Of a DNA stretch of 43,022 nucleotides, positions 6,777-28,164 are shown one piece after another. The stretch's first letter is position 1. Each line of letters opens with the position of its first letter. The notes beneath the pieces are model-generated. The model saw nothing but the letters and a program-made list of their open reading frames with translations, had not been told where the DNA came from and ran no database searches. A program made the position numbers and the translations under genes. The stretch comes from an uncultured Alphaproteobacteria bacterium (lineage in GTDB: Bacteria; Pseudomonadota; Alphaproteobacteria; HIMB59; GCA-002718135), in assembly GCA_902627245.1 (NCBI GenBank), contig CACOIH010000012.1, positions 1-43,022 of the forward strand, written 5' to 3'.

Positions 6777-6910
6777 AAATTTATAAAATATAGCTTGAAA
6801 TTAATTACTTATTAGTTATTTAATGAAATTAATTAATCAATATTTATATTATATATACGATAAAATAATAATTAAACCTCATAAAAATCATTAATAAAGG
6901 AGAATAAAAT

Positions 6911-7114
6911 ATGCCAAGTGGTAAAATAAAATGGTTTAATCCAACCAAAGGTTATGGATTTATAGAAAATGATGATGGAGGAAAAGATGTTTTTCTTCAT
7001 GTATCAGCTTTAGAAGCTGCTGGAATTGACACTTTAGAAGAAGGTATGCCAGTTGAGTTTGAAATTGGTGAAAATCGCGGAAAAGAGAACGCAATAAATA
7101 TTAAGAAAAAATAA
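6911..7114 (+). CDS. cspA: Cold-shock-domain protein
   Basis: A 67-residue single cold-shock domain that binds single-stranded RNA and DNA and acts as an RNA chaperone. It carries RNP1 (KGYGFIE) and RNP2 (DVFLHVS). A strong Shine-Dalgarno sequence, AAAGGAG, lies 7 bases before the ATG. The 130 bases upstream are very AT-rich and could form a regulatory leader, but no definite thermosensor fold was recognised. It begins a run of closely packed plus-strand genes. Confidence 0.95.
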
Positions 7115-23805: not shown

Positions 23806-24990
23806 TTAAAATATTTCTTTTAAAATTGTTGGTATATTCTGTTTAAATTTAAAATAACCTTTTTTTGAAAAAACCCAACTAGAAATATCATATTTTCTAT
23901 TAAATTTTATAAAGTTAATATTTGGGTATTTTTTTATTATTTTTTTATAAATCTTTTTCCAATTACCTTGAGTTACATATGGTAAATATATTTCCTTAAT
24001 ATTATTATCATTTATCCAAATATCTAAATCCTCGTAATAAGTTTTAAAGCTTTTTTTTATTTCAATATCTTCGTAAAAAATATCATCATTTATTGATGAA
24101 TTTGTCAAATTTCTTACATGATCAAGTACCTTATCGCTAAATAAGTGATCATTATAATCTTGTGTTGGATATCCTATAAATGCACAACAATTAGTAATAT
24201 TTAAATCTTTTAAAATGTTAATTTCATCTGTTGGTATAATCATATAATCTATATCAATTGGATTAGAAATTTCAAATGTCTTTAGTTCAGTGATCCTGTA
24301 ATCTTTATTCTCAAATAATGGTTCAGCTGTTTCATTTAATATTTCATTATCCTTAAGTTTTATTTTACTATATTTTTCTATGTTATCTTTTCTAGCTATA
24401 TAATTCTTGCCTTTTGTTTGAATACCAGCACACCAACGCCAACTGAGTAAATTTGATGCCGTATCACCATCAAGGAGATTCTGCATAAAAAAATCAGCAC
24501 CAAGTTGCCATGGTAGTTTTAATGTAAAAATCCAAATTGATGAAAACCACATTCTAATATGATTGTGAAGATAGCCGTTATTTTTTAAATCATTTACCCA
24601 ATTATTAAAAAAGGAAAAATTTGTATTTGCGTTAATAGCGTTTAAATAATATTTTTTGTTTTTAAATTCATTATAAAGATTATTTTTCTCATTTATATAA
24701 TCAGTATAAACTTCTGGTCTATGTTCTAACCAACCTTTCCAGTAAGTCCTCCAAAATATTTCTTGGATATATTTTTCAGCTTTGTGTGGACCATGTATTT
24801 CTAAAACTTGTTTTAAAACTTTTTCCTCTGAAATAGCTCTATACCTAATGTATGGAGATAGAAGGGATGTCGTATTTTTATTTGTTTCAAAATCAACAGA
24901 ATAATTTCTCTTTCTCTCATAATAGCTTCCTGTATTTGGTAAATAAGAAATAAGTTTGTTTTCAGCTTCGCTGATACTTGAAGTAAACAT
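23806..24990 (-). CDS. Cryptochrome/photolyase-like FAD-binding protein
   Basis: 394 residues. Residues about 1-215 match the helical FAD-binding domain of photolyases: LLSPYIRYRAISEE, IFWRTYWKGWLEHRP, LHNHIRMWFSSIW and DGDTASNLLSWRWCAGI. The N-terminal antenna-binding alpha/beta domain that normally precedes this is missing. The C-terminal half (residues about 235-394) has alternating predicted strands and helices and ends with WVFSKKGYFKFKQNIP, reminiscent of part of an antenna domain in swapped order. Light-driven DNA repair or blue-light sensing is possible. A homologous family exists in marine Alphaproteobacteria, as I recall. Confidence 0.78.
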   Translation of the reverse strand: MFTSSISEAENKLISYLPNTGSYYERKRNYSVDFETNKNTTSLLSPYIRYRAISEEKVLKQVLEIHGPHKAEKYIQEIFWRTYWKGWLEHRPEVYTDYINEKNNLYNEFKNKKYYLNAINANTNFSFFNNWVNDLKNNGYLHNHIRMWFSSIWIFTLKLPWQLGADFFMQNLLDGDTASNLLSWRWCAGIQTKGKNYIARKDNIEKYSKIKLKDNEILNETAEPLFENKDYRITELKTFEISNPIDIDYMIIPTDEINILKDLNITNCCAFIGYPTQDYNDHLFSDKVLDHVRNLTNSSINDDIFYEDIEIKKSFKTYYEDLDIWINDNNIKEIYLPYVTQGNWKKIYKKIIKKYPNINFIKFNRKYDISSWVFSKKGYFKFKQNIPTILKEIF

Positions 24991-25001
24991 TTTGTTAATA
25001 T

Positions 25002-25388
25002 TTAATCGTCTTGTTTGTTTATAGATTTTCTATTTAAGATTTCCATGTGTCGAACTCTAAGAACAACAATTGCTATAGCTAAAATTAAGATTGCTACTGA
25101 TTCATAAACATAAGCTGATGGCTCAACATCTTTTCTTCCCATAATTATTAATCTGGCTAAAGCAGTCATAGCTATGAATAATGGGTAACTCATCCTAATA
25201 ACTTTAGAAACCCAATACTCTTTAATCATGCCAATAATTTCGATATAGATAAAAAGTAAAAGTATGTCAGCAAGCGTAACTTTGAGATTAATTATCATTT
25301 CTTGTATTTCCATACCAATTGCAATAACAGTGCACACAATAAGAATTGATAGAACAATTTTTTCTAATATTTCAAAGTTACTATTCAT
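25002..25388 (-). CDS. psiE: PsiE family membrane protein
   Basis: 128 residues with four hydrophobic helices. The segment ADILLLFIYIEIIGMIKEYW followed by PLFIAMTALARLIIMGRK is characteristic of phosphate-starvation-inducible protein E. Its molecular function is not established. It lies in the long minus-strand run between the DCC protein (touching) and the photolyase-like gene (11 bases). Confidence 0.82.
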   Translation of the reverse strand: MNSNFEILEKIVLSILIVCTVIAIGMEIQEMIINLKVTLADILLLFIYIEIIGMIKEYWVSKVIRMSYPLFIAMTALARLIIMGRKDVEPSAYVYESVAILILAIAIVVLRVRHMEILNRKSINKQDD

Positions 25389-25751
25389 TTATAATCTTTC
25401 TAGTTTATTTAATTGATTCTTGTTCTTATAAAATAGAAATAGTGCAAAAATTTCATATAAAAACCATGCTAATTGATAAATTAGAGGCTTTCTTACTAAA
25501 ATAGCCAAAAAACGATATCTTGGTATCTCAGACCATAGCTCTATAAAAGCATCCACTCCCTGATAAATTTTATCTTTTTTCTTAACATGCAGTCTTCTGA
25601 GAAGGTTTTTGGCACTAATTTTTGTTTCTTTTTTTGCATTGCTATTGGTTGATATATCAACCCAATCTATATTTTTAGTAATTTTTTTATAATGGTCTAT
25701 TTCAAGCTTACAAACACTACATGCATTATTAAAATAAACCTTACAACTCAT
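25389..25751 (-). CDS. DCC-family thiol-disulfide oxidoreductase (DUF393)
   Basis: 120 residues. The N-terminus VYFNNACSVCKLEI has the CxxC of the DCC family (usual D-x-x-C-x-x-C, here N-A-C-S-V-C). The C-terminal half is basic and weakly hydrophobic (RFLAILVRKPLIYQLAWFLYEIFALFLFY), consistent with membrane association. Members are thioredoxin-fold proteins of unclear role. It sits immediately upstream of psiE in the operon order. Confidence 0.75.
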   Translation of the reverse strand: MSCKVYFNNACSVCKLEIDHYKKITKNIDWVDISTNSNAKKETKISAKNLLRRLHVKKKDKIYQGVDAFIELWSEIPRYRFLAILVRKPLIYQLAWFLYEIFALFLFYKNKNQLNKLERL

Positions 25752-25765
25752 AGGTAATACTTAAG

Positions 25766-26560
25766 TTAAATATATTCAAATTCAATTAATCCAAGTTTAC
25801 CAAAATCAGCTTTAATTCTAGTTCCAGTATTTAATCTATAAGCTTTTGTGCATGAACCTGATGAAATAAATTGATGTTTTAACATTGGTTCTCCTTTTTT
25901 ACATAAGGTGTTAATTAACCATAAAACTGCATTCAAAGGATTTTCAAGAACATTATTTGTATTACCTTTTTCCTGCAGCTTATTATCAATAAAAAAAGAA
26001 ACTTCAAAATCAGTTAAATCAATTTCATCAATATTATATATTTTATCATTATAAATCCAATAATCTGATGCACCATTAGTGGAAACAAGATTAATTGCCC
26101 CAATATCTGTTAGTGGTTTTTTGAATCTGAAGTCAACAATCTCAATTGAACATAATATTCCATCTAATAAGCTTTTTATATTATCTATAGAGTAGGGTGC
26201 CTTAGAAATATCTATATCGTCTTTTATTCTAAAACTTATTTCAGGTTCTGCAAATGGCTCAAAAAAATATTTTGAATTTAATTTTTCTACATTTTTTAAT
26301 GAATATTTACTAAATAAATTTCCATAAAAAGGTTCAGTTACATTCATCTGAGTCTGTGCTGCTTTAGAAGTACATCCAATTTTTTTACCAATACAAATAT
26401 TATTTTTCAAACTTAGATAATGAATTTTTAATTCATCTTGTATTTTATAAGCGTCATCTAAATTTTTCGGTTGTAGATGGTTAAGGTTATCTAATCCGGT
26501 TTTATTTAATTTATGATCAAATAAGATTCTAGATGCTTCTATTATTTGTTGTTTTTTCAT
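25766..26560 (-). CDS. MhpD-like 2-oxopent-4-enoate hydratase family protein
   Basis: 264 residues related to 2-hydroxypenta-2,4-dienoate hydratase and 4-oxalocrotonate decarboxylase. Visible motifs are IGKKIGCTSKAAQ, FFEPFAEPEISFRI (metal-binding Glu residues) and GAINLVSTNGASDYW. The C-terminal segment GSCTKAYRLNTGTRIKADFG is also typical. The substrate need not be aromatic; no ring-cleavage gene is nearby. It starts 2 bases downstream of the sulfotransferase-like gene and may act in the same pathway. Confidence 0.8.
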   Translation of the reverse strand: MKKQQIIEASRILFDHKLNKTGLDNLNHLQPKNLDDAYKIQDELKIHYLSLKNNICIGKKIGCTSKAAQTQMNVTEPFYGNLFSKYSLKNVEKLNSKYFFEPFAEPEISFRIKDDIDISKAPYSIDNIKSLLDGILCSIEIVDFRFKKPLTDIGAINLVSTNGASDYWIYNDKIYNIDEIDLTDFEVSFFIDNKLQEKGNTNNVLENPLNAVLWLINTLCKKGEPMLKHQFISSGSCTKAYRLNTGTRIKADFGKLGLIEFEYI

Positions 26561-26562
26561 TA

Positions 26563-27270
26563 TTAAATTGAAAGTTGATTCATATATTCATAAATACTAA
26601 GACTTTCTTTGTAAATTTTTTTATATTCATTTGGAACATTCATAATAATATTTGTAGTTTGGCTAAACTCAGTTGAATTTATTATATCATGATACCAATG
26701 AGAATGCCAAATCCCAAAATCTTTTGTTATACCTTTAGGCCATTTCAACATTTTTTTTGAAAAATCTATATTTAATTTTATACATAATCTTTTAATATAT
26801 GTTTCAGGATTTTCTAATAATGCGTCTGCATTAACTATAATTATATTTTTTGATATATTTTTCTTCACATAATTAAAAAGTCTAAACATTTGATCAAAGC
26901 CTATGTCAGTAATACCATTAAGTTTATTCTTTTTAATATATGAATTAATAACTTTTGATGGATGTCTAATTAGAAAGCAATTAGTACCTTTTTCCAACCA
27001 TTCAATATTTGTTTTATCTAAAATATGATGCGTCATATGTTTTTGATAATAGATACCTTTTTTATCTCTTAATATTGTTTCAATTACTTCATGTTCATTG
27101 TTAGGATAAAAATCTATTATTTTGTCTCGCATGGGGTGATTAAGACCAGTTTCTTTTAAATAATATGAATAAAAAGGTTCATCATATACGATTGTATCGT
27201 CTCTATTACTAAATGAGCGTAATAATGCTGTTGAAATATTACGAGGACCTGACCACATGAATATTTTCAT
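26563..27270 (-). CDS. Sulfotransferase-like P-loop protein
   Basis: 235 residues. The N-terminus MKIFMWSGPRNISTALLRSF holds the 5'-phosphosulfate-binding-type loop (residues 8-14), and CFLIRHPSKVINSYIKK holds the 3'-phosphate-binding RxP...S motif. Other segments, such as YDEPFYSYYLKETG and MLKWPKG, recall the N-terminal half of the plant fusion proteins annotated as branched-chain aminotransferase-like. Here the two halves are separate, adjacent genes: the aminotransferase-fold gene ends where this one starts. Sulfation is not proven. Confidence 0.75.
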   Translation of the reverse strand: MKIFMWSGPRNISTALLRSFSNRDDTIVYDEPFYSYYLKETGLNHPMRDKIIDFYPNNEHEVIETILRDKKGIYYQKHMTHHILDKTNIEWLEKGTNCFLIRHPSKVINSYIKKNKLNGITDIGFDQMFRLFNYVKKNISKNIIIVNADALLENPETYIKRLCIKLNIDFSKKMLKWPKGITKDFGIWHSHWYHDIINSTEFSQTTNIIMNVPNEYKKIYKESLSIYEYMNQLSI

Positions 27271-28164
27271 TTATTTTAATAGTTTTTCATACCAACTTCT
27301 TAATTGATAAGTTAGATTTTTATTATTTAATTTTAATTTTTTATTATTTATTGCATTAACTGGAACCACACCACCAAAACTGCCCGTGATAAAAGCTTCC
27401 TCAGCTTGCATAACGTCCTTAAGTTTAAAATCTTTTATAAAAACTTTAATTTTATTTTTTTTACAAATATCTATGATTTTTTGTCTTGTTATTCCTGTTA
27501 CTTGGTATTTTCCTTTTGATGTATAAACACATTTATTTTTTATATAAAAAAAATGTGTACTGTTGTTTGTTGCAATATTGCCGTTAATATCAAACATTAG
27601 TGACTCATCGCCACCTTTTTTATGACCTTCTATGCAGGCTAATATACAGTTTAATTTTGAAAGACTATTTATTTGTGGATTTTGTGCATTTAAACTACCT
27701 CTAATTGTATTTACTGTAACTAATTTTAATCCTTTATTATAAATACTGATATTAGGTTTTTTATATTCAGGTATAATTATTATTGAAGGATCGGAAATAA
27801 CAACTTTTTCAGATTGATATGGTGTACTTCTTAATCCACGAGATATAATAATTCTCATATGCACATCATTTTGCATTTTATTAATTTTAATAGTCTTATT
27901 TATTATTTGAGTTAGTTCTTTTCTGTTTAAGTGAAATTTTATACTTATAAGTTTTAAGTCTTTATACAATCGATCCAAATGATCTTTAAGAAAAATAAAT
28001 TTGCTGTTATAGATTCTACCACTTGTCCAAACTCCATCTCCTAATAATACTGATGAGTCAAAAACAGATATCTTAGCTTTATCTCTAGGATAATATTTAC
28101 CATTTACATAAATTTTAATTTTTTTATTTCTTTTATCTTCTTGAAAATCGTGACTAGAAACCAT
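27271..28164 (-). CDS. Class IV aminotransferase-fold protein lacking the PLP lysine
   Basis: 297 residues of the branched-chain/D-amino-acid aminotransferase fold: VFDSSVLLGDGVWTSGRIYN, HLDRLYKDLKLI, GITRQKIIDICKK and AEEAFITGSFGGVVPV. In an ungapped by-eye alignment with the plant fusion homologue, the Schiff-base lysine (SKIHHNNLLNN) corresponds to Q164 here (PQINSLSKLNC), and the catalytic-site Glu of SETNATNIF to T199 (ATNNSTHFF). K170 lies six residues later and cannot obviously replace the lysine. It may be a pseudoenzyme or use different chemistry. It is the first gene of the nine-gene operon. Confidence 0.78.
   Translation of the reverse strand: MVSSHDFQEDKRNKKIKIYVNGKYYPRDKAKISVFDSSVLLGDGVWTSGRIYNSKFIFLKDHLDRLYKDLKLISIKFHLNRKELTQIINKTIKINKMQNDVHMRIIISRGLRSTPYQSEKVVISDPSIIIIPEYKKPNISIYNKGLKLVTVNTIRGSLNAQNPQINSLSKLNCILACIEGHKKGGDESLMFDINGNIATNNSTHFFYIKNKCVYTSKGKYQVTGITRQKIIDICKKNKIKVFIKDFKLKDVMQAEEAFITGSFGGVVPVNAINNKKLKLNNKNLTYQLRSWYEKLLK

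Follow-up and report, generated by a model that had tools for sequence, protein, structure and literature searches.

What can a protein with the fold of a class IV aminotransferase do when the lysine that should carry pyridoxal 5'-phosphate (PLP) is missing and the next gene encodes a sulfotransferase? The question is raised by a stretch of 43,022 nucleotides (hereafter the window; contig CACOIH010000012.1 of assembly GCA_902627245.1, positions 1 to 43,022) from an uncultured Alphaproteobacteria bacterium, the genome of which has a size of 1.19 Mb and a completeness of 62%. The genes for the aminotransferase-like (AT-like) protein (27271-28164, 297 aa), the sulfotransferase (ST; 26563-27270, 235 aa) and a distant relative of the MhpD/HpaH hydratases (25766-26560) are arranged head-to-tail in this order on the minus strand, to which all window coordinates below refer. 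According to the positions of the open reading frames (ORFs), the gap between the first two genes is zero, the ST gene beginning at the base right after the AT-like stop codon; a preliminary description of the locus had given these coordinates, strand and gene order correctly. We propose, with a probability of roughly 0.55, that the AT-like protein and the ST together constitute a two-protein module that sulfates a metabolite of amine or amino-acid type, and that a phosphate-bearing ligand (PLP, pyridoxamine 5'-phosphate (PMP) or another) is bound by the AT-like protein without a covalent link to lysine. Both the reaction and the ligand are putative.

Active site of the AT-like protein

The AT-like protein matches the Pfam domain Aminotran_4 with 126.2 bits (cut-off 28.5), and its nearest NCBIfam model is that of a branched-chain amino acid aminotransferase (NF006185), reached with 213.9 bits, under the curated cut-off of 363. 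The AlphaFold2 (AF2) model of the protein (mean confidence, pLDDT, 91.2) resembles class IV structures with Z scores of 31-41 among the 50 matches listed, and the top match in the PDB is entry 7Z79 (Z 41.1, root-mean-square deviation 1.4, 296 aligned residues). The position of the Schiff-base lysine is occupied by N166 (codon at 27667-27669), which in phmmer alignments faces both the Schiff-base lysine of the Archaeoglobus branched-chain amino acid aminotransferase (BCAT) 5MQZ, in the sequence K-S-L-N-Y, and the asparagine of 7Z79. In the structural alignment to 7Z79 the numbering shifts by eight (166 + 8 = 174), and the related entry 9J32 is titled as an N174K mutant. The preliminary description had placed a lysine-to-glutamine change at Q164; the loss of the lysine stands, and the residue concerned is N166, with Q164 lying two residues off in the alignments to 5MQZ and 7Z79.

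Two further residues that handle the cofactor are replaced as well. K170 (27655-27657), four residues past N166, faces in an ungapped alignment the tyrosine of 5MQZ that follows its Schiff-base lysine at the same distance, and the position holds lysine in 164 and arginine in 19 of 183 loci. The glutamate that pairs with N1 of PLP has given way to T199 (27568-27570), as had been noticed before; this residue is threonine in 165 loci and serine in 18. In contrast, the phosphate cup is kept. It consists of R50 (28015-28017), acting with I225/T226 and T260-G261-S262; R50 and T226 are present in 183 of 183 loci, T260 in 181, and serine or threonine at position 262 in 182, while position 225 is isoleucine or valine. 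In addition, H102, R104, R109, Q117, E133 and N201 are each invariant in all 183 loci, and R104 aligns with an arginine of BCAT-type paralogues. An excerpt of the work on the Haliscomenobacter D-transaminase gives the PLP contacts of that enzyme as K143, E176 (to N1), R52, I202, T203 and T239 (to the phosphate) and Y147 (to O3') (PMC8401098). All three residues directed to the ring or the aldehyde of PLP are thus replaced (Lys by Asn, the N1-binding Glu by Thr or Ser, the O3'-binding Tyr by Lys or Arg), with the phosphate cup intact. The window protein has the fold, the Pfam domain and the phosphate cup of a class IV aminotransferase and has neither the Schiff-base lysine nor the N1-binding glutamate. 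As far as residues can tell, the kept cup and the invariant positions argue against a dead pocket, without demonstrating a reaction.

Loss of the lysine across the family

Asparagine stands at position 166 in all 30 loci of the window's genus (the window's own included), in the 46 matches of a class-wide E-value search that demands no asparagine, and, overall, in every one of 183 homologous loci, a set in which some genes were fetched twice and many loci come from the same genus. Sequencing error or an oddity of a single genome as the source of the missing lysine is ruled out by this constancy. Two broad searches at E <= 1e-38 detected the AT-like protein in 46 of 386 and 50 of 397 genomes, the weakest match being 1.3e-57, and every locus read from them is without the lysine (46/46 in the first; all but eight unread of the 50 in the second). 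A scan of the genome_contigs collection gave asparagine in 80 of 80 loci, a biased count, for one of the search patterns contains the asparagine; therefore, the claim of a family-wide loss rests on the E-value searches. No homologue keeping the lysine appeared among those read.

As a control, class IV paralogues outside the family were aligned in the same columns, where lysine is found in 21 of 21 and glutamate in 20 of 21. These represent 21 of 32 non-family matches and come from ten of the same genomes; of the rest, ten lacked a fetched locus and L002 is fragmentary, while in the alignment the row from L003 aligns poorly. A maximum likelihood tree of 60 rows places all 39 that lack the lysine on one side of a single branch (support 100/99). 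The tree has three long branches among the outside rows and includes relatives of 7Z79 with the same motif, the 7Z79 sequence itself being absent.

The sulfotransferase and the supply of its cofactor

The ST matches the Pfam family Sulfotransfer_5 (PF19798; 174 bits, E 4.2e-51). All of the 50 structural matches listed for its AF2 model (pLDDT 93.9) are sulfotransferases, with a top Z of 14.8, and the best of them, tied at Z 14.5-14.8, are a tyrosylprotein sulfotransferase, an olefin synthase domain and CurM; a profile search with the ST also recovers the CurM sulfotransferase (E 5.8e-9). The motif WSGPRN (27238-27255), present in 148 of 148 readable loci, is the putative 5'-phosphosulfate-binding loop, and R102-x-P104...S110 (26941-26967), present in 147 of 147 and aligned with the CurM sulfotransferase, is the putative 3'-phosphate-binding motif; both functions are presumed by analogy with known sulfotransferase motifs. 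The window ST shares fold and motifs with the CurM and olefin synthase domains (4GBM, 4GOX) and the tyrosylprotein sulfotransferases, but differs from them in being a stand-alone protein of 235 residues with 11-16% identity in the top rows. By fold and motifs, it is a sulfotransferase of the type using 3'-phosphoadenosine 5'-phosphosulfate (PAPS).

The window's genome encodes an adenosine 5'-phosphosulfate (APS) kinase (E 2.9e-71), and a PF01507 match lies about 1.5 kb from it; such matches are CysD in the two relatives scanned. APS kinase was found at E <= 1e-59 in 33 of 36 genomes with the ST, and at E < 1e-60 in 13 of 20 genus genomes tested, five more having weak matches and two none in these incomplete assemblies. 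The seven genus genomes without a strong match (G002, G008, G011, G016, G023, G027 and G036) carry the AT-like gene, and their incompleteness may be the cause of the absent kinase. In the window's order, 12 of 15 genomes have a strong PF01507 match, CysD in the two that were checked; CysH was not seen in these 15 genomes because no second PF01507 match rose above the cut-off. Two relatives, G044 (92% complete) and G028, carry APS kinase and the AT-ST pair, and a search of both for PF00685 and PF13469 found no such sulfotransferase, other sulfotransferase families not having been searched. This suggests that PAPS in the two may serve sulfation by the ST. Other genomes of the genus do possess additional sulfotransferases.

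A second sulfotransferase, of the Sulfotransfer_1 type, was observed beside the pair in two relatives of the window. In one of them (locus L088, 11605-12507, plus strand; the same gene as the one near the AT-like gene in G029) it is inserted between the ST and hydratase genes with overlaps of 4 bases; the other copy is at 60679-61539 of contig G024:C1.

Coupling of the two genes

The ST gene directly adjoins the AT-like gene in all 30 loci of the genus. Among the 80 loci of genome_contigs, which include Erythrobacter, Sphingopyxis, Rhodanobacter, Lysobacter, Kangiella, two metagenome-assembled genomes (MAGs) labelled Thalassarchaeum and one Anaerolineae MAG, it lies within 600 bp downstream in 71 and further off in two; seven are without it, two of these at a contig edge. 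The class-wide survey of 386 genomes detected the AT-like gene in 46, the ST gene in 36 and both in 35, where 4.3 were expected (Fisher p 7e-39); the searches for the two genes covered 386 genomes each, with the same handles in the rows listed. The genes are linked in 29 of the 35 genomes, with the ST downstream in 23 and upstream in six, and in the remaining six they are far apart or on other contigs. The simplest account of this pattern is selection for joint presence. That the two proteins belong together had been proposed from their adjacency in the window, and it gains support from co-occurrence, from linkage in both gene orders and from joint presence where linkage is absent.

When neighbouring genes were clustered, no third gene was shared by the loci of the pair except among close relatives; in one run the ORF caller missed the AT-like gene in 29 loci. 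No fused ST-AT frame was noticed in the bacterial loci, although no search aimed at fusions was made. The occurrence of the pair in the Thalassarchaeum-labelled and Anaerolineae MAGs (L114, L136 and L147) suggests either transfer between phyla or a binning error.

Lineages without the sulfotransferase

A different partner appears where the ST is absent. We picked 42 loci, mostly for an ST that is not adjacent; they include genomes with an ST elsewhere, L269 with an ST in the locus, and pairs from the same genus. In 21 of the 42, the AT-like gene is directly preceded, in the same orientation, by an ATPase gene belonging to an ABC importer for polar amino acids. A Yoonia locus with one gene between can be added to these; in L240 the remaining importer genes follow downstream of the AT-like gene. 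The same arrangement was found in none of the 80 mostly ST-linked loci, two of which have less than 1.3 kb of upstream sequence. By residue type, and counting Yoonia, the importer precedes the AT-like gene in 15 of 16 R170 loci and 7 of 26 K170 loci. The ST-less members of the R170/S199 group (L171 and L177-L183) cluster in one subclade (support 100/95), most of them behind the amino-acid importer; no ST was found anywhere in the seven of its eight genomes that were searched. The window protein lies outside this subclade, being of the K170/T199 type with the ST gene directly after its own.

The AT-like gene also occurs on plasmids. Only one of 72,556 plasmid records holds a relative of the ST at E <= 1e-20 (28.8% identity, on a Dolichospermum plasmid), so that the 20 plasmid copies of the AT-like gene have no ST on the same plasmid at this threshold; 16 of the 20 records were opened for gene context. 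On plasmids of Agrobacterium, Paracoccus (twice) and Thioclava, the operon encodes, in this order, a binding protein, two permeases, the ATPase, the AT-like protein and a CLC channel; a ProC gene lies on one side or the other, in most cases together with a gene for a GntR regulator. The CLC chloride-channel gene 3' of an ST-less AT-like gene recurs in several plasmids and one genome (L238, L245, L248, L230 and L272). A Yoonia plasmid has a gene of the ornithine cyclodeaminase family in the operon, and on Dinoroseobacter and Paracoccus seriniphilus plasmids TRAP-type transporter genes are in the importer's place. In Paroceanicella and Paracoccus yeei an importer is nearby but divergent, and in Ruegeria no transporter directly adjoins the AT-like gene. 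A choline-sulfatase gene (TIGR03417, 591.6 bits against a cut-off of 433.45) overlaps the AT-like stop codon in Mameliella; on the Yoonia plasmid L242 the AT-like gene is immediately followed by a choline-sulfatase relic of 37 residues (6905-7015), and a complete sulfatase gene lies about 4 kb farther along.

Relation to known proteins

The AT-like protein is not categorically new, since its fold has been described and one lysine-free member, 7Z79 from Variovorax paradoxus, is already solved; in 9J32 others have placed a lysine at the site in question. The window protein shares with these entries the fold, the asparagine at the Schiff-base position, serine or threonine for the glutamate, the motif NSxS[KR]LN and, judged by the relatives of 7Z79 with this motif in the tree, membership of one clade. 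They differ in that 7Z79, at 33% identity, has arginine at position 170 (NSHSRLN) and serine at 199. The residues of 7Z79 thereby resemble those of the subclade with ST-less, importer-linked members, whereas the window protein belongs to the ST-linked Lys170/Thr199 group. The nearest lysine-bearing relatives by structure are the archaeal BCATs 5E25 and 5MQZ (Z 36-37, 32-33% identity), which have the phosphate-cup residues in common with the window protein but keep the catalytic lysine, the N1-binding glutamate and, in 5MQZ, the tyrosine four residues on, where the window protein has N166, T199 and K170.

Enzymes that work without the lysine are known in another fold. ColD is a lysine-free PMP enzyme of fold type I in which another residue works in place of lysine; it differs from the AT-like family both in fold and in having histidine, not asparagine, at the lysine position. 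In plants, a fusion of the At5g27410/At3g05190 type presumably holds both domains in one chain, in contrast to the separate adjacent genes of the window. A search of the open-access literature returned nothing on these plant loci; nor did it return a paper on 7Z79, the AT-ST pair or a lysine-free class IV family, although one may have been published. The idea of a taurine/2-aminoacrylate C-sulfotransferase was dropped, the term not being found among the literature matches listed. Two papers name PF19798 in passages that otherwise do not treat the AT-like/ST family (PMC12506393, PMC11625862), and passages of a third do not treat the family (PMC9309667). An excerpt of a further study lists 113 clusters for which the co-occurrence with salt tolerance exceeds 0.8 in a tiny sample of six strains (PMC10040529); next to each other among them are 'Aminotransferase class IV' and 'Sulfotransferase', which might correspond to the AT-ST pair.

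A proposed lysine-free sulfation module

By homology, the ST is a sulfotransferase with PAPS-binding fold and motifs, and the AT-like protein has a class IV fold in which the three residues that hold or activate PLP are replaced and the cup and the invariant set retained. Such a protein could still bind a ligand that carries a phosphate. The simplest candidates would be PLP and PMP in non-covalent form (PMP itself, or the external aldimine of a substrate amine), and the normal lysine-based cycle of transamination would be beyond the reach of the protein. The two proteins would have as their common target a single small metabolite, either an amine or derived from an amino acid: the ST would add a sulfo group from PAPS, and the AT-like protein would bind or convert the B6-bound or sulfated form. 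The change of partner suggests that ST-less lineages may take up this metabolite, or a relative of it, from outside through the amino-acid importer, and that the same AT-like protein then processes it. The AT-like protein may be catalytic (by B6 chemistry that needs no lysine), may be a binding protein or may activate the ST; a role purely as ST activator is disfavoured by the invariance of its residues and by the ST-less subclade.

Several observations weigh against this proposal. The counts of co-occurrence, including the Fisher p, ignore relatedness, yet 17 genome families carry both genes; 11 of the 46 genomes with the AT-like gene are without a detected ST, and one ST genome (G109, 87% complete) is without a detected AT-like gene. 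A strong APS kinase match is missing from three of the 36 ST genomes and from seven of the 20 genus genomes tested. The change of partner is not strict either: 19 of the 26 K170-type loci among the 42 picked have no such importer directly before the AT-like gene, and G438 has an importer-linked AT-like gene and an ST elsewhere in the genome. Moreover, choline-sulfatase is intact beside the AT-like gene only once and a 37-residue relic once, and the importer operons differ in content (CLC channel, ProC, hydantoinase, MmgE/PrpD, and TRAP transporters in two plasmids); because of this variation, one common substrate is not shown.

The alternative that survives best, though we consider it unlikely, is that the AT-like protein is a catalytically dead pseudo-aminotransferase that provides a scaffold for the ST, stabilises it or activates it allosterically. 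The replacement of all three PLP-handling residues and the constant partnership with the ST in most carriers would fit this role, and there is a precedent in deoxyhypusine synthase, which, according to an excerpt of the source, is activated by a dead paralogue (PMC3663545). However, near-complete or complete invariance of the cup and of further residues in 183 loci, the latter probably lining the pocket, would be unusual for a mere scaffold, and the ST-less subclade, with no ST found in seven of eight genomes and most members behind an importer, has no ST to activate.

It is also rather unlikely that the AT-like protein makes no use of B6 and, as a binding protein or a B6-independent enzyme, accommodates in its cup a sulfate or phosphate group belonging to the substrate. 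The selective pattern of change, in which the cup residues are kept and all residues specific for the pyridine ring or the aldehyde are changed, points in this direction, as does the nature of the partners, a sulfotransferase or, once, a sulfatase. This possibility overlaps with the 'other ligand' branch of our own proposal, and the probabilities that we attach to the readings do not sum to one.

The sulfation module could, as a quite doubtful elaboration, couple a lysine-free B6 step to sulfation. An amino-acid or amine substrate would sit on PLP or PMP in the absence of an internal aldimine, the sulfo group attached by the ST would serve as a tag or leaving group, and elimination would yield an enamine or imine. 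In CurM and the olefin synthase, sulfation readies a leaving group for elimination, and serine-O-sulfate undergoes a suicide reaction with ordinary aminotransferases. If this elaboration were true, the loss of the lysine would spare the enzyme that suicide reaction, the AT-like protein of importer lineages would meet a ready-made substrate, and the imine and the released anion would be handled by ProC or ornithine cyclodeaminase (imine reductases), the CLC channel and the sulfatase that occur in some of the operons of these lineages.

It appears improbable that the AT-like protein is an ordinary PLP enzyme whose Schiff base has moved to K170, about one helical turn further on. In fold type IV, the tyrosine four residues past the lysine touches O3' of PLP according to the excerpt cited above (PMC8401098), a position from which the side chain of K170 could come near C4', and lysine is the common residue here. 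However, the 19 loci with arginine include ST-bearing ones (nine R170/S199 and one R170/T199), arginine is also present in the Variovorax structure, and the 9J32 mutant places its lysine at N174 and not at the position of K170. K170 is therefore rejected as a family-wide Schiff-base lysine by its replacement with arginine, and the loss of the lysine, as first described, withstands both this comparison and the search for lysine-keeping homologues.

That the two genes are neighbours merely by chance or chromosomal synteny is hardly credible: the clustering of neighbours, in which no third gene accompanies the pair beyond close relatives, is set against co-occurrence in 35 of 36 ST genomes including six unlinked ones, inverted gene order in six linked genomes, and the spread of the pair over Alpha- and Gammaproteobacteria, two Thalassarchaeum-labelled MAGs and one Anaerolineae MAG. 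Provided that the genome counts hold, they already refute this reading.

The hydratase and other neighbours

The third gene of the row had been counted as part of the same system, a view that gains no support here. Its product reaches 107.1 bits with NCBIfam TIGR02312 against a cut-off of 351.5, far below the HpaH/MhpD cut-offs, and has no Pfam match; judged by these scores, it is a candidate distant MhpD/HpaH relative only. The gene adjoins the AT-ST pair in 28 of 30 loci of the genus and was not found in 59 genome_contigs loci outside the window's close relatives, and it is rejected on this ground as a core partner. It is probably an addition in the close relatives, outside the core pair.

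Genes for a DCC1-like thiol-disulfide protein (25389-25751) and a PsiE-like membrane protein (25002-25388) lie 3' of the hydratase gene, and related genes recur among the window's close relatives. Farther on is a gene for a photolyase-related protein of 394 aa (23806-24990). In a Pfam search its match is confined to residues 75-200 (FAD_binding_7); no N-terminal photolyase domain turned up, and nothing in Pfam matches the C-terminal half significantly. The AT-like gene is present in 30 of 37 genomes of the genus, and the closest named loci, among the matches listed, are those of uncultured Alphaproteobacteria and of a Pelagibacteraceae MAG.

Implications

Relatives of the AT-like protein are encoded in at least 570 stretches of a collection with one genome per species, and their genes bear database labels such as 'aminotransferase class IV', 'D-amino acid' and 'branched-chain amino acid aminotransferase', which the missing lysine makes doubtful. 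The coupling to the ST, the family-wide loss of the lysine as established with controls, and the importer linkage were not met in our search of the open-access literature. The family raises the question of whether a B6 fold can work without its lysine. Meanwhile, the pairing with the ST and the linkage to importers turn the orphan structure 7Z79 into a testable question, namely which sulfated amine is made or used.

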